From a virus, in IMG/VR virus record IMGVR_UViG_3300033153_012914, positions 1-22,703 of that record: a DNA stretch of 22,703 nt; one strand, 5' to 3'. The notes below the pieces were generated by a model, which made no database searches, was not told the origin of the DNA, and saw nothing but the letters and a program-made list of their open reading frames with translations. Positions 1,510 through 21,853 of the stretch are shown here, piece after piece. The stretch's first letter is position 1. Each line of letters starts with the position of its first letter. A program made the position numbers and the translations under genes.

Positions 1510-3531
1510 ATGGGTGCAGGACGTGTATTAGGAGCAAAACTTTTATTGGAGGGTAAGGAGGTTCCTTTCATAGGGGCTACCATTACTCATACAGTCAATC
1601 AGGCTGCTATAGCCTATATTGATCTAGTTCCTCATAAGGAAATAAATCAGGTTAAACCAAGAACTTTAGCACAAGTTTTTGTAAGGAATTACAATGCCCC
1701 GTCCACAGGCGGAAATCTACACTTCCCCTACGTTCTAGCTTTTGAGGGCGAAGTCTTTGGCTTCAACTTTGGGCGGACCCCTAGCAGCAGAACATTCTCA
1801 ATCTCGTGTATCGACTACTCTAACTACTGGGACAATGTAGTAACATATTTCTTCAACGCCATGCAATCCATGGGCAAGGGTGCTGCCGGATTATGCCGTG
1901 TGGGGTTTGATTTATCAGACGCTGAAAAACAGGGTGAAAAGGTAACCCCAGTGACCCACTCAACAGCCTCCTATTTTATACAACTCATGAGAGGTAAAAC
2001 AGACTTTTTAGACGGACTTGTTGAGGTGATAAGAAATGTAACAAAGCTGAACACCTTCTACCAAAATGCTCAGGGGAGGCTCCGGATAAATGATAGAATA
2101 AGGCTGAAATCTAGTGGTGAGCTGAACGCCCTGTTGGCAAAGAAGGAAGCCTCTCAGTGGACCAAGTGGATGGAGGGTATAATTGGAAGAACTAATGGGA
2201 TGTCCACCCTAAGAATGGTGATACAAGACTTGATGTCTATCGTCTTCCACGACTTCGTGAGCGTACCTTTCCCAGCAAAGGTCGCGTCTTCTAACCTATC
2301 TGGCCCTGCTGTTAAATATACTGGTACTGCATCCTCAAAAACAATTGGCAACTTCATATTTAAACCCAACTTGTACATGGTCGCTCCGCCCTCCTGTAAT
2401 ATATTCTTCCCGAACGAATACTCGAGCTTTCAGTACAGTAGGAACTTTTTCCAGGAACCTACACGACTTATATACAAACCAGAGATGATGTCTTTTGGTG
2501 GCAGACAGCTGGGGATATGCCTACCACACCACTATATGCCTCCATCGTTTGATCATTTTATGAGGGGGAAAGGAAGTCCGGGTAGCGACGTACTTGGAAG
2601 CGCCGACATAAAAACAAACCAAAACTACGGGCACATCGGAGACCCAGACCCCAGCCCGAACTCCAGCGCAACAAACCAGGGTAAAAAAAGAGAGGCTCAG
2701 TTTTTGACTAACGAGGAAAAAATGCGAGGTATTTTGACTCGTCAGGAGGGCATGGTCCCCGCTGCGACTCAATTCAGATCTAGCATGTCTAAGGAGGGAA
2801 AGCGAGCCTACGCGGATGGTGTTTCTGAATACCTGTTTTACAAAAAGAGATTCCAAGGGCGAAAGGTTCAGATTACAAGCCATCTGAAGCTTTCTGTTGT
2901 ACCTGGGTTTACTACACTAATACTTGATAACAGCGATAGTGACCAGAGTGTTGTGGCCTATTGTAGTTCAGTAACACATAGAGTTTACGCAACTCAGGGT
3001 GGCTTTACAAATACAACACTGTCTTACGCTCGGACGATTGAAGAGCAGGATGTTGCCACGGGCAAAGACACAGAACCTCCCGTCCCTCCTTGGTTTTCTT
3101 CCGCGATATTTGGAGGGGCGAAGGACGATGCTAATAGAACGATTTTTCCAAACGCGTTGTCTACGTTCTACGCATCTCTGCTTGGTAGTAGGGGATCAAA
3201 GTCAATACCACACCTTATGGGTACCAGAACCGTAGCGGGAGCAGCAAGAGCGCTAATAAAAAGATACAACTCGGTAAACGAGCAGGGGCAGAGAAGACTC
3301 CAAACCTTTATAGCAAATATTACAGACAGAGACTACGTTACCATGAGGCAAGCTATGAAGTTCTTGGGTGCAGGTACTTCCCGAAAAGACCTCACCACAC
3401 CTTTTGTAGAGTTCTATGGTGCGAGACTTCGAGGAGAAGGGGCCGGCGACGCTTCACAGATAAGAATGAGAAGATCTGTTATAGACAAATACAGACACGA
3501 GTTAAAGACGAAGAGAGGCTTCCGTGGCTAA
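1510..3531 (+). CDS. Putative baseplate hub protein
   Basis: A 673-residue protein with the outline of a tail hub (the T4 gp27 / P2 gpD / Mu gp44 type), which links the tail tube to the central spike. The N-terminal beta-rich part has ATITHTVNQAAIAYIDLVP and FEGEVFGFNFG (from residue 78), where hub proteins set an interface strand and an 'intervening' strand around a domain like the tube protein. SISCIDYSNYWDN follows. The middle is long and irregular. Around residues 450-515 a strand-rich part reads KVQITSHLKLSVVPGFTTLI, then a valine-rich strand and SVTHRVYATQGGFTNTTLSY, a pattern common in hub proteins (a VPGF turn, then GG..NTT). The last 110 residues are Arg/Lys-rich and helical. It overlaps the sigma-like gene by eight bases. 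Remote similarity only; the exact fold is unproven. Confidence 0.6.
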   Translation: MGAGRVLGAKLLLEGKEVPFIGATITHTVNQAAIAYIDLVPHKEINQVKPRTLAQVFVRNYNAPSTGGNLHFPYVLAFEGEVFGFNFGRTPSSRTFSISCIDYSNYWDNVVTYFFNAMQSMGKGAAGLCRVGFDLSDAEKQGEKVTPVTHSTASYFIQLMRGKTDFLDGLVEVIRNVTKLNTFYQNAQGRLRINDRIRLKSSGELNALLAKKEASQWTKWMEGIIGRTNGMSTLRMVIQDLMSIVFHDFVSVPFPAKVASSNLSGPAVKYTGTASSKTIGNFIFKPNLYMVAPPSCNIFFPNEYSSFQYSRNFFQEPTRLIYKPEMMSFGGRQLGICLPHHYMPPSFDHFMRGKGSPGSDVLGSADIKTNQNYGHIGDPDPSPNSSATNQGKKREAQFLTNEEKMRGILTRQEGMVPAATQFRSSMSKEGKRAYADGVSEYLFYKKRFQGRKVQITSHLKLSVVPGFTTLILDNSDSDQSVVAYCSSVTHRVYATQGGFTNTTLSYARTIEEQDVATGKDTEPPVPPWFSSAIFGGAKDDANRTIFPNALSTFYASLLGSRGSKSIPHLMGTRTVAGAARALIKRYNSVNEQGQRRLQTFIANITDRDYVTMRQAMKFLGAGTSRKDLTTPFVEFYGARLRGEGAGDASQIRMRRSVIDKYRHELKTKRGFRG

Positions 3532-4243
3532 AGAAGACGAACTAGCTTTATTTAAAAAATGGAAACGAAGTCAGAACAAAGAACAGTTTCAGGAGCTGTA
3601 TGAGTCTATGCGGCCACTTATTTACAGGGCTTCACAAAAAGCAGCTTATGGGTCTAACATCCCAGAAAGTGCTCATGGTATCTACGCCGCACAGAACTTC
3701 TATGATGCTCTTAGAACCTATGACCCTACGAAAGGCGCAGCTCTAGGAACTCACGTGCACAACACAGTAGAGCAGAAGGGAAAGCGTCTAAACTATCTCT
3801 ACCAAAATCTAGGGCACATGCCGGAACCGAGAGCTCAATCTGTGGGGCTGTACCAAAACGAGTACGGCAATCTCAGAGCTACATTAGGTAGAGAACCATC
3901 TGCGGCGGAACTATCCGACCGGCTTGGTTGGAGCCTTACTCAGGTTAAAAACATAAGAAAAGAAATACAAAAAGACCTATCTCTTAGTGAGGGGCTAGAA
4001 GAGCAGTCCTTTTTTGAAAGCTCCAAAGATGAAGAGCTCCTGAACTATCTCTACTATGATCTTACAAGCGAGGAGAAGGTAGTTTACGAGCACGTGTTTG
4101 GTAAGAATGGCAAGCCCCGCCTTATGAAAGCAAACGGCAGAGTAAACTTCCCCCAAATTGCACGAAAAATGGGGGTTTCTGAGTCAAAAGCGAGGTCTTT
4201 ATTTAACAAGATACGAACCAAACTGGAGAAAGCAGCTAGATGA
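3524..4243 (+). CDS. Sigma-70-family RNA polymerase sigma factor
   Basis: A 239-residue protein with sigma-factor regions in order. Region 2 (about 20-100) contains YDPTKGAALGTHVHNTVEQ (from residue 66), matching the FDP.KG..FSTY...W.RQ core-binding and -10 recognition stretch. Region 3 is clear at 121-150: LGREPSAAELSDRLGWS then a helix. DLSLSEGLEE follows, like the SLE....E linker of cellular sigma factors. Region 4 (180-236) has LTSEEKVVYEHVFG and a helix-turn-helix from residue 209 (FPQIARKMGVSESKARSLF) for the -35 element. The start is GTG at 3524 with AAGAGAGG at 3511-3518, inside the 3' end of the hub-like gene; the stop overlaps the next start as ATGA. It would direct host RNA polymerase to phage promoters, probably late ones. 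The region 2.4 part is weakly conserved, so promoter specificity cannot be read. Confidence 0.85.
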   Translation: MAKEDELALFKKWKRSQNKEQFQELYESMRPLIYRASQKAAYGSNIPESAHGIYAAQNFYDALRTYDPTKGAALGTHVHNTVEQKGKRLNYLYQNLGHMPEPRAQSVGLYQNEYGNLRATLGREPSAAELSDRLGWSLTQVKNIRKEIQKDLSLSEGLEEQSFFESSKDEELLNYLYYDLTSEEKVVYEHVFGKNGKPRLMKANGRVNFPQIARKMGVSESKARSLFNKIRTKLEKAAR

Positions 4244-5709
4244 GTATAGAGCTTATCACCTCATTCATACTTACTAAGCGAGAAGACATTCTGAAAAGTA
4301 ATGACGGTATCGCAATATTAAAAGAAAAAAGTCCTATAGACGTCCTAACTGGCGGTGTTAGAGACAAAGCAACTAGTACCGCTGTCGACCAGCTAAAAGG
4401 ATCGCCACTCAGCCAGCTGGGAGAAGACTACCTAGCAGAACAGGTATCCAAAAATGGTGGGCAAATACTAAACAATGTCACCAACCAGCTGGAGGAGGAC
4501 CTGGACAGAATCACAGGGATTCCTGTCCGCCAAACATTAGAGAACTCACAGCAGCTTGTTTTCAATACCATGAGCGCAGCAATAACTGCTGAAAACGACC
4601 TCATCATGTACTTCCTACAGGAACTGGCGAAGAACTGCATCAACAGACTCGAAAACAAGATACGTATAGCCCGCCTGTTGGTAGAAAAACTGAGACTCTT
4701 GTATAACGCTCTGATTATTTTAGTACACGGCCAGCCGTACTTCTCTGCGTACCTGGATAAGCTTCGCAGAGCACTTATAAAACTAGATCAGGCTGAGAAG
4801 CTTATAAGCCTGGTAAAAGGCACACTTGAGGCAAAAGACTTTTATTTAGGGGTACAGTTTAAAGACGCACAAGACCTGATGGACGACGCAAAAGTACTCA
4901 TCACTCCAGAAGAAAACGACCCAGATGTAAAGTTTACAGACGGTGGTCTTCTGGAAAATGTTGGGATACCCTCGGAGCCACAGCAGGCAACAATAATACT
5001 TTCAATACCTCAGCTAGTGCAGGATGTTTTGATGGCGGCAAATGGATACTTCACTGCCACTCTCGAAACAAATATTTATCTGCTTGGGTATATCCAGGGA
5101 CTCGACAAGCTAAAGGCGTCTTCGTCCAAAAAGCTCACGGAATACACATTGTCTATGCTGAGTTCCCTGAAGGATAGGCTGAACAAGCTGAACAATAAAA
5201 TGGGGCTACAAATAAATGGGCCAAAGGTTGATCCAGAGACAGGTGCAATATCTGGCGCTCGGGATGCGCCAGTGCCCGGTTTTACGCCTGATCCAATAAA
5301 AACCTCTGCCAACGCTCTTGGTTGGGTAATAGAACTCCAGACCATCATAGAGTACGCCAAGTTTGTGCCCGGAAAAACTTTCGAAGACATTCAGCTAAGC
5401 AATGACGCTGTTAAAAAATATCTGGAGTCTGTAGCCAAACTACAAGAAAAGGATGATCGAATTAAAGGCGATGCAATATTAAGGGCTACCGACGGGCGAG
5501 AGAGTCTTGGTGACTTGGAGTCACAGCTTTCAACTTTCTGCGCCGCCAGCCTGCGAGCAATTGTAGACGCAGAAATAGCAGATAATATCCTATCTCTGGG
5601 CCGCACTATTATCACTAGGGTTAACCTGTCCATAACTCAAGATACCGAAATTATTGAAATACTAGGTGGCTTCTCTAAGGCAGACTTAGCCTTTCGAGGA
5701 ATTTTTTAA
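4240..5709 (+). CDS. Unrecognised helical virion protein, 489 residues
   Basis: I do not recognise this family. The protein is largely alpha-helical with long Leu/Ile/Ala-rich amphipathic stretches suggesting coiled coils: roughly residues 80-215 (including NRLENKIRIARLLVEKLRLL) and 255-325 (ending LSSLKDRLNKLNNKMG). A flexible Pro/Gly/Asp-rich link (GPKVDPETGAISG, ASRDAPVPG-like, near 330-350) joins these to a second helical part (360-489). There is no signal peptide; the few hydrophobic runs, such as LYNALIILV, are too short and isolated to call membrane segments. The ATG overlaps the sigma gene's TGA. Lying between the hub-like gene and the gp25/W gene, it is likely a baseplate structural or assembly protein, but that is from context only. 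Confidence 0.7.
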   Translation: MSIELITSFILTKREDILKSNDGIAILKEKSPIDVLTGGVRDKATSTAVDQLKGSPLSQLGEDYLAEQVSKNGGQILNNVTNQLEEDLDRITGIPVRQTLENSQQLVFNTMSAAITAENDLIMYFLQELAKNCINRLENKIRIARLLVEKLRLLYNALIILVHGQPYFSAYLDKLRRALIKLDQAEKLISLVKGTLEAKDFYLGVQFKDAQDLMDDAKVLITPEENDPDVKFTDGGLLENVGIPSEPQQATIILSIPQLVQDVLMAANGYFTATLETNIYLLGYIQGLDKLKASSSKKLTEYTLSMLSSLKDRLNKLNNKMGLQINGPKVDPETGAISGARDAPVPGFTPDPIKTSANALGWVIELQTIIEYAKFVPGKTFEDIQLSNDAVKKYLESVAKLQEKDDRIKGDAILRATDGRESLGDLESQLSTFCAASLRAIVDAEIADNILSLGRTIITRVNLSITQDTEIIEILGGFSKADLAFRGIF

Positions 5710-5710
5710 C

Positions 5711-6097
5711 TTGAACTCTAAGACTGCCACATTCGCCGGAGCCGCTCTTCTAGGGATTGCGACATTAAAAGAAGGACTTAGCACAGAAGAAGACAGAGAA
5801 CAACTCACCCAGGCAGAAAGAGTTATCCAAAGAGACTCAAAGTCGAAAGAACTTCTTTCTCAAAGAACCGCAACAACTGGGTTCGCAGCTCAAATAGCTC
5901 AGAATACCCGCTCAGATAAAAGACTTGAGGCTATCGGGGTCAAGGCCGTGGTCGCAGCAGGGAAATCTGGTTTGTCAAGCGGGCCAGCAACACCTAATAT
6001 GTTAACAGGCGGGGTTGCTAAGGCAATGGGTGTTGGCCTAGGTGGAAACTTGACGGCTTCCCAGAGTCTTTCTAATCTCGGAAAAGGAATTATATAA
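5711..6097 (+). CDS. Small Ala/Gly-rich protein, 128 residues, TTG start
   Basis: I do not recognise this protein. The likely start is TTG at 5711, one base after the preceding stop, with GAGGA at 5696-5700. The N-terminus has a short hydrophobic stretch (TATFAGAALLGIATL, residues 5-19), possibly a buried helix rather than a true signal peptide since no cleavage site is evident. A charged helical part (EEDREQLTQAERVIQRDSKS) follows, and the last 50 residues are Gly/Ala/Ser-rich (LTGGVAKAMGVGLGGNL). The stop overlaps the gp25/W start as TAATG. Its place before the wedge genes is where many phages put spike or hub-completion genes, but no spike (OB-fold or PAAR) motif is visible. A small tail-completion part is one guess. 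Confidence 0.7.
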   Translation: MNSKTATFAGAALLGIATLKEGLSTEEDREQLTQAERVIQRDSKSKELLSQRTATTGFAAQIAQNTRSDKRLEAIGVKAVVAAGKSGLSSGPATPNMLTGGVAKAMGVGLGGNLTASQSLSNLGKGII

Positions 6098-6516
6098 TGG
6101 GCTTTGATGATATTCAGGTAACAAATGTACACCCCGAAACCGGAGTAATCACGCTAGGACTGCAGCCCAAACGCCTAAAAGGAATTAGTAAGCTAGTTCA
6201 AGTTGTGGTACTATCCATACTAAATAGTCCAGGCCAAGATGTTCTTGATTTTGAGAAGGGATCCGGTCTGGGTGGCTATGTCGGCGCCAATATAGAATCA
6301 GAAAACTCTACCGAGCTTCTATCTCATATTGCGCTGAGCATCACCAAGACGGAGAAAGAAGTACTTGCAGCCCAGATTGGACTGGATGAAGACCCGGAGG
6401 AGCTGCTGAAAGAGTTACATATCGTAGATATAAGACAGGGTGGAAATATAGATGAATATTACGTAATCGTAAGGGTTATAAACGAAGCCGGTCAAACCGC
6501 AGATATATTGGTGTAA
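6097..6516 (+). CDS. Baseplate wedge protein, gp25/GpW-like
   Basis: A 139-residue protein of the length and layout of the T4 gp25 / P2 gpW family, which forms the core of each baseplate wedge and contacts the sheath and inner ring. The diagnostic stretch is VVVLSILNSPGQDVLDFEKG (about residues 35-54), corresponding to the I...L.T..GE.....E.G pattern, where the usual GER is SPGQD. The C-terminal half reads ELHIVDIRQGG then D(E)YYVIVRVINEAGQTADILV, the typical terminal strands with a 'V..V.NEAG' ending. A cysteine-free, acidic helical part (EKEVLAAQIGLDEDPEELL) lies between. It is followed at once by the J-like gene, the classical W-J pairing, which raises confidence. Confidence 0.8.
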   Translation: MGFDDIQVTNVHPETGVITLGLQPKRLKGISKLVQVVVLSILNSPGQDVLDFEKGSGLGGYVGANIESENSTELLSHIALSITKTEKEVLAAQIGLDEDPEELLKELHIVDIRQGGNIDEYYVIVRVINEAGQTADILV

Positions 6517-6519
6517 AAT

Positions 6520-8973
6520 ATGGCACAACTACCAATTGCAGAATTTTTAAAAGAGCGCTTAGTCGAATACGATCCTGAGTTTGAGCTTAGAAAAGGCACG
6601 GCCTTCGAGCACCTTTTCTTCAAACCTATGGAGTTCATCACTCAGCCATTTCGTGACGAGGCAAATGAAATCTACATATCTCAGAGTTTTCTGAGAATCC
6701 TAAGGAGTCCTGATCCGGACGGCTTTGACGAAGAAGCTGTCGACGCTTTAGCGGCTAACCTGTACGTCACACGACGCGGCGGAAATAAATCTAGCGGAGT
6801 GGTCAGAGCTTATTATAATGAACCGGTTGACCGGGAATACCCCGCTACAGGAGCGGTATGGAACTCCAGTGGTGGAGATGTCTTTGTTAACCCAGCAACA
6901 TTCGTTATCACAGTAGACCAGATGTCTATCCAAGTTGAGGATGGTCTTTTCTATTTTGACATACCCATTGAGTCAGAAGAAGAGGGTGACATTGAGGTAG
7001 CCGTTGCCGAGATAGTTGAGCTTGTAGGTGATGACGACGTAATACGTGTGACCAACAAGCTTGCTTTCAGCGGTGGTGTTGCCAGAGAAACAAACGTAGA
7101 TTTTATTGCTCGTATTCAGCAATCAATCGCTGTAAGAGATCTGCTAATAGGCAAAGGTTTCAGTGCTATTCTTTTTGAAAACTTCCCGAATACTCTACTC
7201 GAAGTCCAGCCAGTTGGGTTCGGCGACGATGAGATGATGAGGGATATTTTATACAATACTCACATAGGTGGGAAGGTCGACGGATACTCGAAGACTGGTA
7301 CCATCCTAACAGGAGAGGCTGACTTTGTAGGGCTCCTTCTCGATACGACTCGGCAAACCTTTTCGAGTGCAAACGTTTTGCTAGACGGAGTCGCATGGGC
7401 TACGGTTGGTCAACCTAACATAGACCGAAGCAACGGCCTGGCCCCCACTGTTAAAGAGATTAAGCTATCAAGCGCGGCAGTATTTCATTCTGCTCAAGAT
7501 CTTTCTGGTGCAATAAACCTCTCTACGAACCAGCATGTTCGTATCGGAATAGACAGTGACTTCAGGAACATTCGAATTGCTGGAGTTGTTCCGTCTGCTA
7601 CAACTAGAAACGAAATTATAAACCTGATAAATATTAGTTTTGGAGTCACAGTCGCCTTCCCAGAAGGAAATAGCTTAAAAATACAATCAACAACAGTAGG
7701 GCTAGATAGCTCGGTAATAATAGACAACCCAACAGTAGGAAACAGTGCAATCTTTCTAGCCTTCGGGCTGCTGACTGGCCTTGCTCCGCACGAATACAGT
7801 GGAGACGGGCCGATTACTTTTGTTGAGGGATTTCACTATGAAGTAGACGACGAAGCAGGGAAAGTACGAAGAGTGGTCGGACCAGACCTCCTAACCTCAG
7901 AAACTACGGGGGATACAGTAGACACGAGTGCTGTCTTCACCGACTTAACAGCTAACCAATTCTTGGCAGTCTCCGAAAGAGACATCCTTACTATAGAGAC
8001 AGGAGCCGACGTTGGTGATTATAGAATCCTAGAAAAAACCGACATTAACAACTTAGTCCTAGACGCCGAACTCACAGCTACCGCTTCAGGTATACAATAC
8101 AGCATACGGAGAACAGGTATAAAGGACAATGAGCTTGTTTATGTCGAGTACTACTACAACCCACTCTCCATCGATATAGGTAAAAATATCGTACTTGATG
8201 AGTGGGGTAGAGAGCGTGGAATCAGGCCCGGCAGGGAGGAGCAGACCATTACAGATCTGGCTTTTCTCAGAATACGAAAGATCGAGCAGATAGACCCCTT
8301 AACACTGGAGCCTACTGGAACGGTACTGGACGGTACTGGAGGCTACGGACAAGGTGGATACGGACAAGGTGGGTACGGTATCGGGGAAGGCTCCGAGTAC
8401 AGGCTTAGTGTTGTGTCACCGCACGAACGGTTCTCTATGTTTGAGCATAGCTACATCGTCATAAACTCAGGACTTCAGGGCTTGAGCTTCAAAGTAACCT
8501 ACGACTACGTCCCTGAGATAGAGCAATACCACGATTTCGTAAGAACTGAGGCTGAAAGAATTCTGGGCGGAGATATCTTAATGAAGCATCTGCTGCCAGT
8601 GTATGTACGTGGGACAATAACGTATTCAATTGACGAAACAGATGCCACCATTCCAGATAATGCCACCTTAACGGAGGCTGTATACAATTACATCAACACA
8701 CAGAGAGCTGGAGTTGACCTCGAATATTCTGACATCATTCAATTCATTGTTAGAACGGTGGATCCGTTTGATAAGTACGGCTCGTTCATAAAGACGTTTG
8801 AGCTGGACGCAGTAATACATAATGTGGATGGTACAATCCTGAAAATCACAGGGAAAGACAAACTGGTGATCCCTACTTTGGACCCATTTCCTATCGAAAC
8901 GACTAGGCCCTTAAGCTCTAGAATCACACACTGGATTGCGGATAAAGACAACCTGATCCTGGAGAGGATCTAA
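6520..8973 (+). CDS. Baseplate J-like wedge protein
   Basis: An 817-residue protein of the baseplate J family (P2 gpJ, Mu gp47, T4 gp6 core), which dimerises around the hub to form the inner wedge ring. Visible marks: an opening helix (AEFLKERLVEYDPEFELRKG), FDEEAVDALAANLYVTRRGG near residue 70, a beta-rich domain carrying GAVW, SGGVARETNVDFIARIQQSI near 185-205, and the family's G(F)GDDEMMRDI...HIGGKVDGY with HIGG at 248-251. The rest is larger than in P2 (about 300 residues) and carries a 'GD-x-L-x-I' module at about 471-533 shared with other proteins here, a GYGQG repeat loop at 608-622, and a C-terminal part with MKHLLPVYVRGTITYSI. The ribosome site is weak, so translation is probably coupled to the W gene four bases upstream. 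Confidence 0.82.
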   Translation: MAQLPIAEFLKERLVEYDPEFELRKGTAFEHLFFKPMEFITQPFRDEANEIYISQSFLRILRSPDPDGFDEEAVDALAANLYVTRRGGNKSSGVVRAYYNEPVDREYPATGAVWNSSGGDVFVNPATFVITVDQMSIQVEDGLFYFDIPIESEEEGDIEVAVAEIVELVGDDDVIRVTNKLAFSGGVARETNVDFIARIQQSIAVRDLLIGKGFSAILFENFPNTLLEVQPVGFGDDEMMRDILYNTHIGGKVDGYSKTGTILTGEADFVGLLLDTTRQTFSSANVLLDGVAWATVGQPNIDRSNGLAPTVKEIKLSSAAVFHSAQDLSGAINLSTNQHVRIGIDSDFRNIRIAGVVPSATTRNEIINLINISFGVTVAFPEGNSLKIQSTTVGLDSSVIIDNPTVGNSAIFLAFGLLTGLAPHEYSGDGPITFVEGFHYEVDDEAGKVRRVVGPDLLTSETTGDTVDTSAVFTDLTANQFLAVSERDILTIETGADVGDYRILEKTDINNLVLDAELTATASGIQYSIRRTGIKDNELVYVEYYYNPLSIDIGKNIVLDEWGRERGIRPGREEQTITDLAFLRIRKIEQIDPLTLEPTGTVLDGTGGYGQGGYGQGGYGIGEGSEYRLSVVSPHERFSMFEHSYIVINSGLQGLSFKVTYDYVPEIEQYHDFVRTEAERILGGDILMKHLLPVYVRGTITYSIDETDATIPDNATLTEAVYNYINTQRAGVDLEYSDIIQFIVRTVDPFDKYGSFIKTFELDAVIHNVDGTILKITGKDKLVIPTLDPFPIETTRPLSSRITHWIADKDNLILERI
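8321..8385 (+). repeat. Short tandem repeats in the J-like gene (GYGQG loop)
   Basis: Two tandem copies of the ten-base unit CGGTACTGGA (8321-8340) are followed by three copies of a 15-base unit beginning GG(C/A/G)TACGG (8341-8385). The second set encodes three five-residue steps, GYGQG, GYGQG, GYGIG, at residues 608-622. The 10-base unit is not a multiple of three, so a change in its copy number would shift the frame, whereas the 15-base unit can vary safely. It probably encodes a flexible glycine-rich loop. Confidence 0.8.
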
Positions 8974-9158
8974 TGCCGTTTAAGAGTAAAGCCCAGAGGA
9001 GAAAGTTTTACGCACTCAAATCCAAGGGCGATATGGATCAGAAAACTATAGATGAATGGGAGGATGAGACTCCTAAAAAGATACCGGAACGAGTCCCTGC
9101 TAAAGAAGCAGACATCGAGAAGACTGCCTTTTGGGCTGGATTTTTTAAGGATAGATAA
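8973..9158 (+). CDS. Small KSKAQRRKF-type phage protein, 61 residues
   Basis: A 61-residue, very charged protein starting MPFKSKAQRRKFYALKSKG, then DQKTIDEWEDETP and a short C-terminal helix (EKTAFWAGFFKDR). The KSKAQRRKF(Y/F)A opening is a motif I know from small proteins of unknown function in many phages, often in structural regions; the function is not known to me. The basic first 18 residues and acidic middle suggest it binds something charged. It sits between the J-like and gpI-position genes with TAATG overlaps on both sides, so it is made in step with the wedge proteins and may be a minor baseplate part or an assembly factor. Confidence 0.8.
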   Translation: MPFKSKAQRRKFYALKSKGDMDQKTIDEWEDETPKKIPERVPAKEADIEKTAFWAGFFKDR

Positions 9159-10753
9159 TGGCTTCGAAGACTTATTTTAACTATTTAGGTTCTGTGTGGG
9201 AGCACCTACCAACCAAAGATATAGAACGTATGGGAGAGCTGTGGCATGGCTACGAACAGGTCATGGCCTCTGTATACCAGAACTTTGTAGAGGTCGATGT
9301 CAACGTAGTCATACACGATCTCATACCATTTGAAACAGAGCGCTGGCTTCCGTATGAATTCACAGAGGACAATCAAATTCTGAAGCCTGCCGTTCACACA
9401 GCAACTCAGGATCTATCTGTCGGGGCTAACCTTGCCAACAGATATCTACTAAGACTACAAGTAGACGATGGCATTGAGTTCGAGGTTGACTTACGTGGCC
9501 TGACTCCTGCATCAACACAAATCGACGAGATTGTGTCTAAGATAAACATGGCAGCTGGGTACAACCTAGTAGCTACTGTTCTGCTGAACTCTACACTTCA
9601 GTTTACCTCTCCAACATCTGGACCAAACTCCAAAATCACTTTCCTAGAAGCTTCGCTGCCGGCTAAAGACGCAATAGAATTCGTGGTGGGAATACAATCT
9701 ATAGATCTTCCGGTAACAGTTCCGGAATACCCGTACATATACAGCAGCCCATATGAAAGTGTTGTCAGCATCCCAGAATTGAGGACAAAGATAAGAGACG
9801 AATCCCTTGATGAATCCGGGCTGGAGATATTCGAAGACGAGAACTACTCTGTGGATAGAAGCTTAGCGGAGATCGCGTTTAAAGAGGCGCCTCCGGAAGC
9901 CATGTGGGCGAAGAGAACTCTGTTCGACGAGGAAACCCCGTGGCATAATTTTGGTTTCCTCATGGATATCTACGATACTAACTCAGTGCAATATTTGAAT
10001 GCTCTTCGCGGCCTATGGTTCGCTTTTTGGAACGGACCAAAGCCCGAAAATTTGAGGAAGGCTCTTTACCTCCTTTTTACTCTTCCGTCTGCTCTAGAGG
10101 ACTCCACTGTCACTCGAGTAACCACAACGGTGATCGAAACGACTAGCGATGACGGCGTGATAAGGCTGTTTGAAATACCGTCCGGGCTGGTATCAGTTGT
10201 AACAGAGGGTCAAGAAGTCGAGGAATTCCAGCCACTTGTGGACGGAATTGATGTTTTCGACAAAACAAGCTTACCCGGATTTGTGACTACAGAGATTGGC
10301 AGAGCTAATATTCAGAGGTTTCTTACACCTGACGCCAGCCGCGGGGTTGGGGATACCGACGAAACCAAGGCTATGAGGCTGCTGGAAGAGCACACCTTTC
10401 TGCCGCAAATTAACGTGAACGCGTTTGTCACGCCAGACATCAATTTAGGGAACGTTCGAACCTTCCTAGATGCCATCCAGCCTCTGCACAAAACATACAT
10501 GTTTCAGATCATAGTTGGTGCTTTTGAGGATCAGATACTTATTGATGATAAACTTGGTCTAGATATTGGCATTGATGTGACTCCTAATGTAGACTCAAAC
10601 CAAACAACGTTTGCTGAAACAACAATTTTAGACGATTATGAAACTGTGGAAGACACAAATCTCAATGTTGACTCTGATGGGATGTTATTCCAGGAGAGTG
10701 TTTTTATTGAGGTTTATAGTTTTGCTATCTTGATTGACAGCTTTGTTGCTTGA
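9158..10753 (+). CDS. Baseplate wedge protein in the gpI position
   Basis: A 531-residue protein that follows W and J, where P2-like modules put gpI, the wedge protein that ties the baseplate to the fibres. It opens with an aromatic helix (FNYLGSVWEHLPTKDIERMG) and LWHGYEQVMASVYQNFVEV, typical of wedge proteins that pack on the J ring. The middle is beta-rich. Near 280-310 it has LRGLWFAFWNGPKPENLRKA then LYLLFTLPSALE; a similar 'LR.L..AF..GP...N...AL..LL.LP' run is familiar from phage baseplate proteins. The last 60 residues are acidic and repetitive in character (FAETTILDDYE, VEDTNLNVDSDG) and may be an extended tail. It ends with two stops in a row (TGA, TAA) that begin a stem-loop. The gpI match is by place and outline, not by clear sequence identity. 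Confidence 0.6.
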   Translation: MASKTYFNYLGSVWEHLPTKDIERMGELWHGYEQVMASVYQNFVEVDVNVVIHDLIPFETERWLPYEFTEDNQILKPAVHTATQDLSVGANLANRYLLRLQVDDGIEFEVDLRGLTPASTQIDEIVSKINMAAGYNLVATVLLNSTLQFTSPTSGPNSKITFLEASLPAKDAIEFVVGIQSIDLPVTVPEYPYIYSSPYESVVSIPELRTKIRDESLDESGLEIFEDENYSVDRSLAEIAFKEAPPEAMWAKRTLFDEETPWHNFGFLMDIYDTNSVQYLNALRGLWFAFWNGPKPENLRKALYLLFTLPSALEDSTVTRVTTTVIETTSDDGVIRLFEIPSGLVSVVTEGQEVEEFQPLVDGIDVFDKTSLPGFVTTEIGRANIQRFLTPDASRGVGDTDETKAMRLLEEHTFLPQINVNAFVTPDINLGNVRTFLDAIQPLHKTYMFQIIVGAFEDQILIDDKLGLDIGIDVTPNVDSNQTTFAETTILDDYETVEDTNLNVDSDGMLFQESVFIEVYSFAILIDSFVA

Positions 10754-10784
10754 TAAGATACAACGCGCTAAGGTGTTCTTATCA
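10751..10784 (+). promoter_or_regulatory. Inverted repeat spanning the tandem stops before the fibre genes
   Basis: A perfect eight-base inverted repeat, TGATAAGA (10751-10758) and TCTTATCA (10777-10784), encloses 18 bases; an inner ACA/TGT pairing (10760-10762 with 10774-10776) can lengthen the stem past one bulged T. It takes in both stop codons of the preceding gene and ends two bases before the GGAG ribosome site (10787-10790) of the next. It lacks a T-tract, so it does not look like an intrinsic terminator. It could affect translation of the fibre module or mark an RNA-processing site. This is the only gap above about 15 bases in the window. Confidence 0.4.
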
Positions 10785-10798
10785 CCGGAGAAAACATT

Positions 10799-11407
10799 AT
10801 GAAGGCTAGAGAAAAATTAGGGCTTAGAGGTAAGGTTGAGCTCTTTGTAACTAAGGGAAAAGCCCCTATAATAAAGCAAGGCAAGCTACTCTACGACAAG
10901 CCCTACCCAGTCTACGACAAAGCCGAAATAGACTTCTCAGGCACTCAATTAATAGATAAACAAGTCCTCCACAACATCATATTGAACCAGGGGAAAGACA
11001 AGGTAATAACCAGCCTGACTACTGGATTCATGCGGCCCATCGCTCGTATGGCTATAGGTGACCGAGGTACTGAGCTTTACAACGAAACCTACAGGGATGA
11101 CGTTGATACAACCACATTGGATGTTGGCACACCCACTGTTCATGAAGTACAGTTTATTAAGACATTTTCTGCTTTAAATGTGCCAATTACGGCATTTTCC
11201 AACCAAGCAAACCCACTAGTCAATGAGGTGGCTTTGGTTATGATAGATATTCTAGGTGGTAATCCTCTGCCCAGAGCTCCAGTAGCATCACCAAATAGTC
11301 CTGATGCAGATGAAGAGCTTTTTGGTATTCGGGCCTTCAAGTCAATACCATTTGAGGCAGCTAATGAAATAGCAATAACAATCCGTTACACCATTTTCAT
11401 AGAGTAG
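10799..11407 (+). CDS. Tail-fibre adaptor-like virion protein
   Basis: A 202-residue protein that opens the fibre module, preceded by GGAG at 10787-10790. The middle carries FMRPIARMAIGDRGT (about residues 77-91) and the end carries FGIRAFKSIPFEAANEIAIT then RYTIFIE. The ARMAIGD.G...-then- 'NE..L......L...R.FKSI.F.....I.I.YTI' outline is one I recognise from small structural proteins placed between baseplate and fibre genes in phages of several host groups, usually annotated only as virion structural proteins. It probably forms a beta-sandwich that attaches fibres to the baseplate rim, but that is inferred. A Pro/Ala/Ser stretch (PRAPVASPNSPDADEE, about 155-170) looks like an exposed loop. 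Confidence 0.6.
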   Translation: MKAREKLGLRGKVELFVTKGKAPIIKQGKLLYDKPYPVYDKAEIDFSGTQLIDKQVLHNIILNQGKDKVITSLTTGFMRPIARMAIGDRGTELYNETYRDDVDTTTLDVGTPTVHEVQFIKTFSALNVPITAFSNQANPLVNEVALVMIDILGGNPLPRAPVASPNSPDADEELFGIRAFKSIPFEAANEIAITIRYTIFIE

Positions 11408-11411
11408 GCTT

Positions 11412-12818
11412 ATGGGAACAACAACTGATTACTTAAATTTGATTCTCCCCTTAAACAACGAGTACCAAGACATTTGGGACCAGCCCACGAATGAGAATTT
11501 TCAAAAAATCGATGACTGGGCAAAGGATTTTGGTAACGAGTTGATAGACGCGCGTCAAGGAAAGGCCACTTTGCTGGAATTTCTGCAAGTTGCACACGCC
11601 TCTAATGGGACTCTGCTAGCCACAACCGAGATAGTGAACTCTCGCAGCTCCTTCTTATACGGAGATGAAAATGGTTCTGGTGTGGACTTCTACCTCTCTG
11701 ATACACTTGAAGAGGGGGACAGGGAAGTTCATAAGGCCAGGGAGGGCTACCCCTCCTTACGTGAGGCTCTCGGGGCAAAGGTCTTCCTAGGCAATGCAGT
11801 GCTCGATGGGGCAAACGACGTAGATGGATACCCCACCTGGTTAGGCTTTACAGGCGCAAACGCCCAAGTCGACGGATCAGCGGATCCTGTGTACCTACTC
11901 ATTGGTGGGCAGCAGGGGCGAGTCAGAAGCCTTAAACAAATCACAATCTCCGGGTCTGCCGGGGAAAAATACCTATATGCTCAGCTTGAGGTGGACGGAA
12001 CAGTAATCGTCGATGGCGATTCTGGCACTCCCCCACCAGCTACTCCAGAAGGAACAGCTGGAAGTGACGGCACAAAAGTTCGTATTTTAGAGGACTTAAC
12101 TGTAGACTTTCCCGCAGCCGGCGTAGAAGTCGGCGATATCCTTAGAATACTGGGAACCACATCAAACTCTGGCGATTATCTTATTGAAGACGTTGCCCCA
12201 GGTGGTGATGTGAACCAGGTTCAAATCAAGGGAGTATTCCCGGGCGGAACACTGGCTTCTCTGGATTATGAAGTTCGAGATCCTTTTGGGGTTACTTTAG
12301 GCTTTGACGATGCACTTGCTCCTGCTTCAGGAAAGATATACATGGGCGAAGCAGATTTCGACGGGATTTCAATCACAGAAGTACGCGCCATGCACTTCAA
12401 AGACTCCTTTGTAGGAGACTGGCGGGCTGCAGATGTTAGCGGAGGATCCCCAACATTTGAGGAAATCTGGCATCACAACTTTCTATCCGATACGGTAGAG
12501 GTTGCTGTCCAAGTCTCTCAAGCTAATGACGGAAGTGAACCTGTGGAGGAGCTAAGTAAATGTACGACTCTCTCCGGTTTAGGTGTAAATATAAACGACA
12601 CATATGCGTTTGATCCGGGAACTTCGGATGCTTCGCTGAGCGGGAGTGTCACAGGCAGCCTAACAGGCTCTCTGGATGTTGACAGATCTGCTCAAGTAAA
12701 ATGGGATAAAAATAGTGTATATGTTAAAAACCCCATCTCTGGAAAGTTTTACAGGGACTATGGTAATGCCCAGCAAACTTCAGGGTTTATACGGGTAGTG
12801 GTGAGAAAAAGGGCTTAA
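11412..12818 (+). CDS. Tail-fibre protein with N-terminal attachment motif
   Basis: A 468-residue protein. The N-terminus (TDYLNLILPLNNEYQDIWDQ, then PTNENFQKIDDW) is a familiar opening for phage fibre proteins that attach at the baseplate ('YLNL..P......W....N.NF..ID'). The rest is beta-rich, Gly/Ser/Asp-heavy and low in charge, as in fibre shafts. Residues 222-290 form a module with VEVGDILRILG and SGDYLIEDV that resembles parts of three other proteins here. Near 205-215 a Pro/Thr-rich hinge (GTPPPATPEGT) separates two parts. The end (SGSVTGSLTGSLDV, then RVVVRKRA) has a short serine-glycine repeat. No enzymatic motif is seen. The ATG lies four bases after the previous stop, with a weak TAGG site. 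Confidence 0.65.
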   Translation: MGTTTDYLNLILPLNNEYQDIWDQPTNENFQKIDDWAKDFGNELIDARQGKATLLEFLQVAHASNGTLLATTEIVNSRSSFLYGDENGSGVDFYLSDTLEEGDREVHKAREGYPSLREALGAKVFLGNAVLDGANDVDGYPTWLGFTGANAQVDGSADPVYLLIGGQQGRVRSLKQITISGSAGEKYLYAQLEVDGTVIVDGDSGTPPPATPEGTAGSDGTKVRILEDLTVDFPAAGVEVGDILRILGTTSNSGDYLIEDVAPGGDVNQVQIKGVFPGGTLASLDYEVRDPFGVTLGFDDALAPASGKIYMGEADFDGISITEVRAMHFKDSFVGDWRAADVSGGSPTFEEIWHHNFLSDTVEVAVQVSQANDGSEPVEELSKCTTLSGLGVNINDTYAFDPGTSDASLSGSVTGSLTGSLDVDRSAQVKWDKNSVYVKNPISGKFYRDYGNAQQTSGFIRVVVRKRA

Positions 12819-16310: not shown

Positions 16311-17810
16311 ATGGCTGAAATTGAATTTTTTGTACTAGAAAACGGAGTAAAAACAAGGAAAGTCAGTTCTGATTTATCTGCTGACTTTTCTTCCGTTAAG
16401 GTTGGTGCATCAAAACTAGAGATCAAGGAGACCGCTGGCCATCTAGATATGGGAGGCAAGAAGCTCAAAAACAGTGGTGAGCCCGTAGACGCTTCTGACC
16501 AAGCTACAAAAGGCTATTGCGATACTCAGCATTCTAATCATACAGGTGATACAGCAAACCCTCACTCAGTAACCAAAACTCAGGTAGGACTATCAAACGT
16601 ACCCAACTTGAAGGTGAATCTTATTGCTACCACGGATCCTAGTGCAACTGATGATTCTGGTTCTGGTTATGCAGTAGGATCGCGCTGGGTGAATGTTACC
16701 CTGGACAAAGAGTTTGTTTGTCTAGATGCGACTTCGGACGCAGCAGTTTGGGGTGAAACTACTGGCGGTTATAGCTCATCTAAAGGCTCGATGGAGCTAT
16801 CTCTTAACTCCACGGCTACTACTATATCAACAATGAGTGTTGCTGTTAAGGCCGCTGGCACTACTAGTTCTGTAGGGACTTTGGTTGATTTCACTCATGC
16901 ATCCAATAAACTAACCTACACTGGAACAAACACGATAGAGTTTTTAGTTGTCGCAAGTTCGACCATCACAGCCGGTTCGGACAAAGACGTTTCTTGGATG
17001 TTGTATAAAAACGGATCTCAAGTAGGCCCAAGACAATCTGTGTACGGGCAGGCCGGTAGCGGAAAAATAGGATCTGGCTCAATAAGTCAATTGGCTACTC
17101 TTGCTACAAATGATTACCTAGAGATTTGGTTTATAAACGACGAATCAACTGACAACATGACCCTAGTGGATTTAAGTTTTGTGGTCTTTGACCACACCAA
17201 AAAAGGGGAGGCAGGTCAGGTGGGTGTCCAGGGTGCCCAGGGCGACCAGGGATCTCAGGGCGACCAGGGATCTCAGGGAGAAACAGGAGATCAAGGCGTT
17301 CAGGGAGAAACAGGAGATCAGGGAGCAGCCGGAGCCTTAGTCCATCTTGGCCCATGGGCGACATCAACTGCTTACATAGTGGGTGATGGTGTTGAAAACG
17401 ACGGATCTAGCTACACATGCTACGCAGCTCACACAAGCGGCGCGTCTACTGAACCCGGAGTGGGTGGGTCGTGGGCGGATAAATGGTATCTACAGGCGGC
17501 TAAGGGCGAAGCTGGGGCTGTGTCTTTTACAGAAGAATCTGATACGATAACCACAGATTCTAGTGCGTCGTGGGTAGATAGGACGCTAACTGGGTTTGCA
17601 AATAAAACAGTCGAAATACTTATGCACAACGATTCTACAGGTACCAGGGTATTAGGTGTAAGAGCTAATGGCAGTTCTCTCGAAAGAAAAATTTCCATTG
17701 TGAAGGAGACAGCACTAACAATGCTAGTCCAAGTAGACAGCAGCGGCATCATAGAAATTTACAGTAGTGGGACTAGCGTTGTATTTAAGAATAACGGGAG
17801 TTTGGGCTAA
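16311..17810 (+). CDS. Tail fibre with collagen-like and carbohydrate-binding-like parts
   Basis: A 499-residue fibre protein. Near residues 44-72 it has MGGKKLKNSGEPVDASDQAT then KGYCD, the 'NKRI.N..DPVD..DA..K.YVD' fibre motif, and at 77-99 HTGDTANPHSVTKTQVGLSN, the 'NPH.VTK.QVGL.NV' motif known from many fibres. A beta-rich domain follows. Residues 299-340 are 14 unbroken Gly-X-Y triplets, mostly with Gln in the third position and acidic residues in the second: a collagen-like triple-helix stalk that implies a trimer. Residues 347-396 (GPWATSTAYIVGDGVENDG, then YTCYAAHTSG and W..KWYL) match the outline of small chitin/cellulose-binding (CBM5/12-type) modules. A beta-rich tip of 100 residues ends the protein. 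AAAGGA at 16300-16305 is the ribosome site. Confidence 0.8.
   Translation: MAEIEFFVLENGVKTRKVSSDLSADFSSVKVGASKLEIKETAGHLDMGGKKLKNSGEPVDASDQATKGYCDTQHSNHTGDTANPHSVTKTQVGLSNVPNLKVNLIATTDPSATDDSGSGYAVGSRWVNVTLDKEFVCLDATSDAAVWGETTGGYSSSKGSMELSLNSTATTISTMSVAVKAAGTTSSVGTLVDFTHASNKLTYTGTNTIEFLVVASSTITAGSDKDVSWMLYKNGSQVGPRQSVYGQAGSGKIGSGSISQLATLATNDYLEIWFINDESTDNMTLVDLSFVVFDHTKKGEAGQVGVQGAQGDQGSQGDQGSQGETGDQGVQGETGDQGAAGALVHLGPWATSTAYIVGDGVENDGSSYTCYAAHTSGASTEPGVGGSWADKWYLQAAKGEAGAVSFTEESDTITTDSSASWVDRTLTGFANKTVEILMHNDSTGTRVLGVRANGSSLERKISIVKETALTMLVQVDSSGIIEIYSSGTSVVFKNNGSLG
17205..17330 (+). repeat. Collagen-like coding repeat
   Basis: This segment encodes the 14 Gly-X-Y triplets of the fibre protein. 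At base level an 18-base unit is exactly doubled (17238-17255 and 17256-17273), and a second 18-base unit beginning CAGGGAGAAAC occurs at 17274-17291 and again at 17301-17318, split by nine bases. Such near-identical units allow copy-number change by slippage or recombination without shifting the frame. Confidence 0.9.
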
Positions 17811-18373: not shown

Positions 18374-20743
18374 ATGCCAAAGACAGAGGGCTCAAATTTT
18401 CAAGATGTCAATGAAGCGGGATTAGCCGTTTTAGGGCAAACTGAGCGCAGCAACAATGAAGTGTTGATGTCTGCCGTTGACAATGAATTCGAGGGCCCGT
18501 TCCGTCTAGCTGCAACTTTCCCAACTCCAGATAGCAAGCTCAACATTACAGGCAGCCAAGTAGCCTCGTCTGATGGCACTGGTAAAAACGCTGCTCCTCT
18601 TAACAACCAAGTAATTGAATTTGACGATTCCACCATTGATTTTCAAGCACAGAGCACAACCGGTGGAACAATAGATATAACATGGGAAGCCTCTACTGTA
18701 GGGCAATACAGAAGGCTGGGACTTTCGCTTCTTGCGAGCGGTGTGATTCGCGCTATCTTTAGCGATGAAGAAGCCGTGTTTACCAACCTACCAAATCCGG
18801 GCGATGTCTTTGTACGAATAGACGCTGTCCCGATTGGTTGGCTCGATCTAGTATGCACAGACGTAACCGGCAAGTTCAAGACTGTCGGGAGCGCTACGAA
18901 TATAATTGAAAATTCTGTTGGCAGTGACATTCGTGTAAACAAGTTTAGCAATGGAGCTGGTGCCGGCGGCGCAGGCGAGGAAGCGGTTTCTTTCGAGCCG
19001 GCTGACGGATTTCAACTAGCTGTTCAGGATAAGTTTGACGCTTCACCTGGCGACGCCTCAGCTAGGGTTGATAGCTCTGTTACTAATGCCGACTACGAGC
19101 CAGAAGCTTACTACAGGCTATCTTGCGATAAATCGCGGACCGTCTCTCCCGTTGGCACTTCATATACTCTATCAGGTGCACCAGGGTTTACGGTAAAAGA
19201 AGGCGACATTGTCTACGTAAACTCGACTGAAGAATGGCGTCGTATCGATACGGTTACGACCCAAACAACCGGTGTTTTGGATACGGCGTTCTCCGGAAAT
19301 CCTACAGCAGAAGCCGGTATGGTCTCCCAAGCTGTGTGGACCAAGGATCTCATCAGTGTAGGAGAAGCTTCTCAGAAAACAAGACCTGGCGTCCCAGTTC
19401 CTCTCGTTAGTTTAGACTATGTGGACAGTCTTGATGCGGGTGACACGGTTGGCGATATAAATGATGATGCTCGAATCGTAGCATCAGCTTCAAATGACGG
19501 AGTCCAAGCAGATGTAGGGCTTCCTGATTCAGATACTTTTCTCCCGTTTCACACAAGGCCCTCGGGCTTAGATCTGATACAAAACTATGATCTAGGTGGA
19601 GCCGGAGAACGACTTTTCATAGTATTCTTTTGTAACCCCGACAACGCTACAGTCACAGCTGCAGCAAACGTCTTAGACTATAGAGTAAGCCTTTATGAGT
19701 TAAGTTATCTTCTCAACGGTGGAATACTAGAGTCCGCGTTCTGCATGAGTGATGGAACAGGAACAGCTAACAATTGTCAGCCCCCCACTGTTGTATTTGA
19801 TGCGACGGAGGGTAAAAATGTTACTGAAGTTGAACTTGATTTTTCTTTTGTGTCTGGTGTTAAGCCTGGTCAGCCTAGTGGTCACATAATATCCATCGTT
19901 GAGGGTAATATACTCCCAAGAAAATTCCCTGGAGTTGTAGGTCAGTTTTGGTTTCCTGCTCCTGGTTCTAATAACAAGGTACGGTTTTCTGATGACCTCT
20001 CTGGCCAATCTTTCTCATTACACTTTGAGAAGAGGCAGGGGACCATTGATGTCAGTGATCTGAACCGAGCACTTATTGAGACAAACATAGATGATATTGC
20101 TGCCAATACTCTAGCGCTTCCGCCCATTGGATCCATAACTGCTTTTTCTGGTGGTTATTTCACGAACAGCTCCAACGGCGGATTTACTATGGTTCAGGCA
20201 GGCGGGAACAATGCTGCCGCGGTCAACGCAGCTCTACCTGCTAACTGGCGAGTTTGTGACGGGGCCGCTTTAAACGATCCAGAATCGCCTATATTTAATG
20301 GCGGTAGCAGATACCTACCCAACCTTGATGACAATAGATTTATAATGGGTAGCACGAGTGTTGGTGCTACAGGTGGCGCTAATTCATACGACCTTACTCA
20401 TACTCACAGCATTAGTGTTAGTGTTGCTGCTGCTAACCCCGGCCATACCCATTCCTTCAGTGGATACGCTAAACTACATGCCAGATACGTAAGCTCTTCG
20501 CCGTCTCACTTAGCACAACAGAAGGCTGTCGCCGCCTGGCCATCTAATGTCAATCTTATAGGCAGCTGGGTCGTAGGTGGCGATCCTGTTAACGAATACG
20601 TCGGTACAGACGTAATAGGCTCAGTATCTGGCAATAGCATGTCACACGGCCATAGCGCCAGCTCTAGCTTGGGTACCGGTCTAGGTGCCACGACTGTAAT
20701 ACCACAGTACTTAACTTGCTTTTATATAATGAGAGTAAAATAA
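18374..20743 (+). CDS. Tail fibre with C-terminal collar-type tip domain (copy A)
   Basis: A 789-residue fibre protein; GAGGA at 18360-18364 overlaps the previous stop. The first 580 residues are a beta-rich shaft with a GAGAGGAGEE loop near 195-205 and a GFTVKEGDIVYVN module near 272-310. From residue 584 a tip domain starts: PIGSITAFSGGYFTNSS, WRVCDG, DPESPIF, RYLPNLDDNRFIMGSTS, then HxH motifs at 676/678, 691/693 and 758/760, and the end PQYLTCFYIMRVK. This is the phage tail-collar pattern, in which HxH motifs in T4 gp37 and gp12 hold metal ions along a trimeric needle. The 64 residues between the second and third HxH are unlike those of the two later copies. It is the probable receptor-binding fibre. 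Confidence 0.8.
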   Translation: MPKTEGSNFQDVNEAGLAVLGQTERSNNEVLMSAVDNEFEGPFRLAATFPTPDSKLNITGSQVASSDGTGKNAAPLNNQVIEFDDSTIDFQAQSTTGGTIDITWEASTVGQYRRLGLSLLASGVIRAIFSDEEAVFTNLPNPGDVFVRIDAVPIGWLDLVCTDVTGKFKTVGSATNIIENSVGSDIRVNKFSNGAGAGGAGEEAVSFEPADGFQLAVQDKFDASPGDASARVDSSVTNADYEPEAYYRLSCDKSRTVSPVGTSYTLSGAPGFTVKEGDIVYVNSTEEWRRIDTVTTQTTGVLDTAFSGNPTAEAGMVSQAVWTKDLISVGEASQKTRPGVPVPLVSLDYVDSLDAGDTVGDINDDARIVASASNDGVQADVGLPDSDTFLPFHTRPSGLDLIQNYDLGGAGERLFIVFFCNPDNATVTAAANVLDYRVSLYELSYLLNGGILESAFCMSDGTGTANNCQPPTVVFDATEGKNVTEVELDFSFVSGVKPGQPSGHIISIVEGNILPRKFPGVVGQFWFPAPGSNNKVRFSDDLSGQSFSLHFEKRQGTIDVSDLNRALIETNIDDIAANTLALPPIGSITAFSGGYFTNSSNGGFTMVQAGGNNAAAVNAALPANWRVCDGAALNDPESPIFNGGSRYLPNLDDNRFIMGSTSVGATGGANSYDLTHTHSISVSVAAANPGHTHSFSGYAKLHARYVSSSPSHLAQQKAVAAWPSNVNLIGSWVVGGDPVNEYVGTDVIGSVSGNSMSHGHSASSSLGTGLGATTVIPQYLTCFYIMRVK

Positions 20744-21046: not shown

Positions 21047-21853
21047 ATGTCATCAGGAAGACCAGTTACGAGTGATATAGTAATCAGACCGCAGGATCCT
21101 GGTGCGGGACAGTCTTTCTTTGAGAAGAGTATACAAGGTAAACATATTGCTCTGGGCAACGTTAAAATGCGGCACTTGTCCCAAGATCTACTGGATGAGT
21201 TCGCGCCCATTGGTTCCATAGTTCAGTACGTCGGTGGATACTTCACAAACAGCTCAAATGGTGGCTTCACCATAACAGAAGCCGCAGGAAATAACTTTTC
21301 TTCTGTCAACAACGCACTCTCAGAGAACTGGAGAGTCTGCGATGGCACTCAATATAGCGACCCCGAGTCTCCCATCTTTGGCGGGGCTGGTAGGTATCTG
21401 CCAAACATGGACAATGACAGGTTTTTGATGGGCTCTACGTCTGCGGGATCGTCTGGTGGAACAAATAATGACAGCCACTCGCACGGTCTTGCAGGAGCTC
21501 TTGGTGTGCACGGGCACACTTCAGGAGATATAAGATTCTCTTGGGATATGAGATGGGTGTTGGGACAAAACGTAAATGTAATTGTATGGCATGAGGACCC
21601 TGTCTCGAGTTTTACACCAAGCAGAACAGCGCGGTTTAATCTCTGGTCCTATGACGGTTGGGGCGACTTCGGGCCTGAGTACACCCAAACCACCGTACAC
21701 ACTGGTGGGGGCTGGATAAACACTACCTACGCACAGTCCGCAGGCTCAACTGGTAGTGTAAACCTATCACATTCCCATGGCAGCACATCAAGCTTGAGCT
21801 TAGATAACAGGCCGCAATACTTAAGTTGCTTTTATCTGATGAGGGTTAAGTAA
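21047..21853 (+). CDS. Short fibre-tip protein with collar-type domain (copy B)
   Basis: A 268-residue protein made of a short N-terminal part (1-53, with HIALGNVKMRHLSQDLLDEF) and a tip domain (54-268) homologous to the end of the 789-residue fibre: PIGSI, GGYFTNSSNGGFT, WRVCDG, DPESPIF, RYLPNMDNDRFLMGSTS, HxH at 144/146, 155/157 and 242/244, and RPQYLSCFYLMRVK. The insert between the second and third HxH is 84 residues, rich in Trp and aromatic residues (WDMRWVL, LWSYDGWGDFGP), with no evident similarity to copies A or C. The N-terminus aligns with that of copy C, so B and C are full-length paralogues. The ribosome site AGGA is at 21038-21041. It may be an alternative or additional receptor-binding tip, or a short tail fibre. 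Confidence 0.8.
   Translation: MSSGRPVTSDIVIRPQDPGAGQSFFEKSIQGKHIALGNVKMRHLSQDLLDEFAPIGSIVQYVGGYFTNSSNGGFTITEAAGNNFSSVNNALSENWRVCDGTQYSDPESPIFGGAGRYLPNMDNDRFLMGSTSAGSSGGTNNDSHSHGLAGALGVHGHTSGDIRFSWDMRWVLGQNVNVIVWHEDPVSSFTPSRTARFNLWSYDGWGDFGPEYTQTTVHTGGGWINTTYAQSAGSTGSVNLSHSHGSTSSLSLDNRPQYLSCFYLMRVK

Follow-up and report, generated by a model that had tools for sequence, protein, structure and literature searches.

A sigma-70-family factor encoded among the baseplate genes of phages that carry their own RNA polymerase, and its probable packaging in the virion

The stretch of DNA considered here, referred to as the window, comprises 22,703 nucleotides of the IMG/VR virus record IMGVR_UViG_3300033153_012914, and carries a block of baseplate genes, all on the plus strand. 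First come a gene for a conserved 396-aa tail or baseplate protein (307–1497), whose homologue gp6 of Salmonella phage Arash appears in the Arash virion proteome, and, 3′ of it, one for a 673-aa baseplate hub protein (1510–3531) homologous to the lysozyme-bearing hub Arash gp8, which carries Phage_lysozyme; the hub also matches positions 8089–11586 of the related locus L002 (BLASTP E=2e-10). The gene that follows (3524–4243) encodes a sigma-70-family factor of 239 aa with a GTG start, with regions 2 and 3 and a weak region 4. As the initial annotation had noted, it overlaps structural genes at both ends, sharing 8 nt at its 5′ end with the hub gene (stop at 3531) and being overlapped at its own stop (4243), through ATGA, by the gene starting at 4240. 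A putative ribosome-binding stretch beginning GAAGAGAGG (3507–3523, plus strand) lies within the end of the hub gene, ahead of the GTG, and GTG is taken as the start codon because the 13-mer spanning it, GAGGCTTCCGTGG, is also present in the closest relative, locus L006. Further downstream are a 489-aa protein (4240–5709), a 128-aa ORF with a TTG start (5711–6097) that matches part of a 675-aa ORF in L006, a gp25-like baseplate wedge protein (6097–6516; phrog_2669, phrog_43) and a baseplate J or gp6-like wedge protein (6520–8973; phrog_6, E=1e-14). The 489-aa and 128-aa ORFs together correspond to the one continuous 675-aa ORF of L006, and the two-ORF state of the window (4240–6097) may reflect a gene split, a frameshift or a sequencing error. 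Beyond the block, a putative tail-fibre protein (16311–17810) has collagen-like GxQGxQG repeats, and three ORFs (18374–20743, 21047–21853 and 21853–22617), which have a similar C-terminal part with the motif YLPN[LM]D[DN]xRF[IL]MG and the end FY[IL]M[RK]VK, are apparent tail-fibre or adhesin duplications.

Positions 3524–4243 encode a real sigma-70-family protein, with chance similarity excluded. Against Pfam the product matches Sigma70_r3 (PF04539) over the gathering score at E=4.5e-7 and Sigma70_r4 (PF04545) under the curated cut-off at E=0.0014; residues 54–236 match PHROG 351, ‘RNA polymerase sigma factor’, at E=4e-11, and the NCBIfam FliA/WhiG model is matched below its cut-off. A profile of 30 family members, compared with the PDB, matches SigA, HrdB and RpoS over regions 2–4 (best SigA, E=2.8e-14). 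The profile search that had been suggested as a check on the initial annotation led to sigma each time, and the features that it had listed, YDPTKG at residue 66, LGREPSAAEL at 121 and a helix-turn-helix from about 209, are where it had placed them; that regions 2, 3 and 4 stand in order is borne out by the family alignment to SigA, with region 4 weak when taken alone. Among the 30 members searched individually, Sigma70_r3 is found at E<0.01 in 28, Sigma70_r2 directly in five and Sigma70_r4_2 in just five, region 4 being the weakest part. An AlphaFold model of the window protein has a mean pLDDT of 80 and a pTM of 0.40; its top PDB matches are nearly all sigma factors, with TM-scores kept low because the domains are unplaced relative to one another, and among its structure matches in BFVD (Foldseek) the named ones are likewise nearly all sigma factors.

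Like the Group 1–3 sigma-70 proteins (SigA, RpoS, FliA/WhiG), the window protein has regions 2, 3 and 4 in order and aligns by profile over its full length. For the residues of E. coli sigma and beta′ used here as position labels (E407, Y430, W433, W434, T429, R441 and R275) we assume their accustomed roles. The equivalents of T429 and R441 are invariant in the family (30 of 30), as is D-P-x-K-G in region 2, and the most conserved columns are those of regions 2.3–2.4, through which known sigmas contact promoter DNA (mean top-residue frequency 0.69 versus 0.45 for region 4). What sets the family apart from Groups 1–3 is the replacement of Tyr430, Trp433 and Trp434 of the −10 pocket by His, Asn and a variable residue, a divergent region 4, and a phage-specific signature, NYxYQN, in region 2.4. 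At the E407 position Glu is retained in 23 of the 30 members and the window sigma has Tyr. Binding to core RNA polymerase and promoter-specific initiation are the predicted functions of the window sigma.

Searching IMG/VR with the window sigma alone found no close relative; a profile of three sequences (those of the window, Arash and Vibrio phage D69) recovered 40 loci. Among isolated phages, homologues were found in Arash (gp10) and in Vibrio phages D69, D148 and D181. Over 42 loci (the 40 from IMG/VR plus Arash and D69) the sigma gene keeps its place in the baseplate block: 41 have one or more homologues of the window's baseplate-block genes next to it on the same strand, in agreement with its initial placement inside a baseplate operon, and a J-like wedge gene is near it in 37. 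The nearest relative, L006 (genome G001), has a sigma 61% identical to that of the window and the same gene order. Arash Gp10 (OQ632216; PMC10585845), about 30% identical, occupies the same slot between lysozyme hub and gp25-like genes. In most relatives a small leader gene of 65–100 aa intervenes between hub and sigma (e.g. L002:11600–11890, L003:10732–10995), and it is absent from the window and from L006/G001. Arash differs from the window's clade in having this leader, a second sigma (Gp196) and a polymerase split into beta–beta′N and beta′C, that of the window's nearest relative being fused. The leader product could be a sigma partner or an anti-sigma; that of Arash, Gp9, is absent from the virion table.

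The sigma gene belongs to the core set of phages that encode their own beta/beta′ RNA polymerase. The window record is a 24-kb fragment with no polymerase gene in it. RNA polymerase beta (PF00562) is present in 15 of 27 sigma-bearing records, and in 14 of the 15 that are at least 130 kb long; the lone exception, G017, has a close relative, G021, with the polymerase. In all 15 sigma-bearing records with a polymerase the two genes are on the same strand. Searching in reverse, with the polymerase as the starting point, added 20 contigs, and the sigma is in five of five of those of at least 150 kb and one of 15 shorter ones. Shared ancestry alone could explain this co-occurrence. In Arash, beta and the N-terminal half of beta′ are fused in gp206 (PF00562, 2.8e-56; PF00623, 6e-16), with the remainder of beta′ in gp216, and the enzyme of G001 is a single beta–beta′ chain of 2511 aa (L098:5102–12637). 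That ORF also has an apparent intein, with a LAGLIDADG-like LLGYFVGTVAGDGW, right after the catalytic NADFDGDQ motif. No alpha subunit was found in the 20 records searched. The lineage matches the one published as mReC (multi-subunit RNAP-encoding Caudovirales; Weinheimer and Aylward 2020), to which it is likened by gene content, with tailed-phage genes and cellular-like beta/beta′ found by standard profiles in metagenomic contigs; that paper mentions neither sigma factors nor virions (PMC7481178).

Could such a polymerase accommodate a sigma? The known docking sites are the clamp helices of beta′ and the flap-tip helix of beta. In the G001 polymerase the alignment to bacterial beta′ runs through the former and that to bacterial beta through the latter, and the clamp-helix region is kept across the phage polymerases compared, with the residues that contact sigma in E. 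coli (such as R275) changed. The residues of the bacterial sigma–beta′ contact are largely altered in both phage partners, which fits, and does not by itself establish, a co-adapted pair.

Evidence of another kind comes from published virions. The 116 proteins reported from sucrose-gradient-purified Arash particles, replication enzymes included, contain the baseplate sigma beside both polymerase chains: Gp206 (beta) has 128 unique peptides, the most detected, Gp216 (beta′) 40, and Gp10 24 with 100% coverage (PMC10585845, Table 2); Gp196, the second sigma, is missing from the list. The authors suggested either a role in early transcription or carry-over of abundant proteins (PMC10585845). Expressed as unique peptides per residue, a measure that is semi-quantitative only, Gp10 stands at 0.103 and the polymerase chains at 0.084 and 0.066; the neighbours of Gp10 from Gp4 to Gp15 range from 0.016 to 0.055, Gp16 reaches 0.083, and primase and ligase have 0.002–0.006. 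On this semi-quantitative scale the level of Gp10 is that of the polymerase and not that of a trace contaminant.

The genomes also contain short promoter-like motifs, in two classes segregated by strand. GKTATAAG occurs upstream of genes on the non-structural strand far above expectation (observed versus expected: Arash 14 versus 0.2, G013 15 versus 0.2, G018 19 versus 0.4, D69 16 versus 0.4, G001 8 versus 0.1, G011 6 versus 0.2 and G023 6 versus 0.4), and in these seven genomes none was found on the structural strand. On that strand TAAAATA is enriched in D69 (11 versus 0.8), G023 (10 versus 0.8), G011 (8 versus 1.1) and G013 (4 versus 0.7), and YTAAAAT in G018 (8 versus 1.2) and, weakly, in Arash (3 versus 0.5). 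No −35 element is evident with the phage motifs. T4 late promoters, too, are −10-only. In the records examined neither the T4-late TATAAATA nor TTGACA is clearly enriched, and TATAAT shows a modest excess in two records only. The GC-rich members G021, G022 and G039 yielded no motif, and the late motif was not found in the window's own clade (G001). The window itself holds a single GTATAAG, inside an ORF.

The TAAAATA class is present in all six genomes with a second sigma (Arash gp196, L049:44656–45693, and its relatives) and in none of nine without it, three of the nine being GC-rich and so less informative, and the baseplate sigma is in all 15. G001 has the GKTATAAG class, and a second sigma was not found in it, with the caveat that G001 may be incomplete. 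The pattern suggests that GKTATAAG belongs to the baseplate sigma and TAAAATA to the second one, a pairing by presence and absence in which the second sigma marks one clade and the cases are not independent events. Before or near the start of the second sigma, five loci have TTGACT-N18-TACTAT and a sixth a TTGACA/TACTAT variant, and these host-type sequences suggest that it is the host polymerase that at first transcribes the second sigma gene.

The baseplate sigma gene has motifs of its own upstream. All six Arash-like loci have an exact GGTATAAG in the gap that separates the hub stop from the leader start, though the flanks differ, and this internal motif implies that expression of the Arash-like sigma is not purely late. 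The L009/L010/L018/L032, L016, L017 and L040 loci have TAAAATA at or near the hub–leader junction, and in the D69-like loci it is found just within the end of the hub gene. Altogether TAAAATA or GKTATAAG precedes the leader–sigma pair in 16 of 23 leader-type loci versus 23 of 333 control junctions (fixed 110-nt window; Fisher p=3e-12, inflated by relatedness, with about six lineages involved). With a motif at the junction, the sigma is probably not expressed by read-through alone. None was found before the sigma gene of the window or of L006.

The reading we favour, with a probability of roughly 60%, is that the sigma is the promoter-specificity subunit of a virion-packaged phage RNA polymerase that is injected for early transcription. 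It would be produced from the structural gene block, serve as specificity subunit of a phage-encoded polymerase of bacterial type made of beta and beta′, the phage enzyme and not that of the host being its likely partner, and be packaged into the virion together with that enzyme. The holoenzyme would then be delivered along with the DNA so that phage early transcription could begin, its promoters most likely being those of the GKTATAAG class. The window phage may be expected, by analogy, to behave like its relatives. Less secure is the fuller scheme in which the lineage packages a sigma-70-type holoenzyme that reads GKTATAAG early, while in one clade a second sigma, expressed from a host-type promoter, drives TAAAATA late; on that we would offer slightly worse than an even wager.

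The initial annotation had proposed positive feedback on late transcription, with packaging and injection as a different idea. Of the two the packaging idea fares better: the Arash mass spectrometry (PMC10585845) gives strong support to its packaging half, injection being the inferred step. The feedback proposal would make the protein a late sigma of the infected cell, directing host or phage polymerase to late promoters and amplifying its own operon, with its presence in virions a matter of carry-over. A gene inside the structural block suits this, as does the excess of motifs before the leader–sigma pair in several lineages, and the late-type motif there in the L009/L010/L018, L016, L017 and D69-like groups would amount to autoactivation if the baseplate sigma reads it. 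It is nevertheless not the best fit for a sigma accompanied by a phage polymerase: TAAAATA is enriched only where the second sigma is present, the peptide density of Gp10 is like that of the polymerase and above that of most baseplate neighbours, and in the window's own clade there is no motif before the gene through which feedback could act. We consider this late role unlikely overall.

More improbable is that the sigma works only with the host core enzyme, the phage polymerase finding promoters in another way, as is described for phiKZ-type enzymes. Published surveys do pair sigma-encoding large phages with the host core (PMC7598289, PMC7824862), and the Glu retained at the E407 position in most members would agree with it; against it are the co-occurrence of sigma and polymerase from both search directions, their joint presence in Arash virions, the sigma-docking elements retained by the phage polymerase and the Tyr of the window sigma at that same position. 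A sigma-derived protein that takes no part in transcription and has come to serve the baseplate as a structural or assembly component would account for the fixed slot in the hub–gp25 part of the block, the weak region 4 of most members and the homologue in the Arash virion, and is the least probable reading of all given that the promoter-contacting regions are the best conserved, with two invariant positions, that the top Foldseek matches include no named baseplate protein and that the peptide density exceeds that of most baseplate neighbours.

Two counterparts in T4 were considered and set aside. An equivalence with gp26 or gp51, from the same hub–gp25 slot, is unsupported, these being phrog_150 and phrog_634 and the Foldseek matches being almost only sigma factors. 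As to a late sigma of gp55 type, phrog_234 misses the window protein and all 20 of 20 relatives' records, the T4 control scoring 2.5e-70. Like the window protein gp55 is a phage sigma, but its gene lies apart from those of the baseplate and it uses the host core enzyme.

Among other phages, phiKZ and AR9 also have an alpha-less multisubunit polymerase, one form of it packaged, and a specificity subunit (AR9 gp226). In contrast to the window protein, which is clearly sigma-like, AR9 gp226 and phiKZ gp68 do not resemble sigma in sequence and act with the non-virion enzyme; a recognisable sigma-70 protein in its virion distinguishes the window's relative Arash from both. Reviews describe polymerase-encoding jumbo phages as lacking sigma and sigma-encoding ones as lacking a polymerase and using the host core (PMC7824862, PMC7598289, PMC13282480). 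Contrary to this, sigma and polymerase coexist in the present lineage, and one isolate has the two together inside its particle. If the fuller scheme is right, here is a phage-encoded polymerase with a sigma cascade of its own. With two polymerase chains plus sigma and short −10-type motifs, the lineage offers a tractable system for testing how a deep-branching RNA polymerase uses sigma, and it is relevant to the question of whether sigma-dependent initiation in such phages was taken from cells or is an old form that they retained. As a minor observation, the G001 genome has near-identical copies of TATATTACTGTTTATAATTA[AT]TTATGTATAAGTGG twice, on opposite strands, at C1 80287 (−) and 138465 (+).
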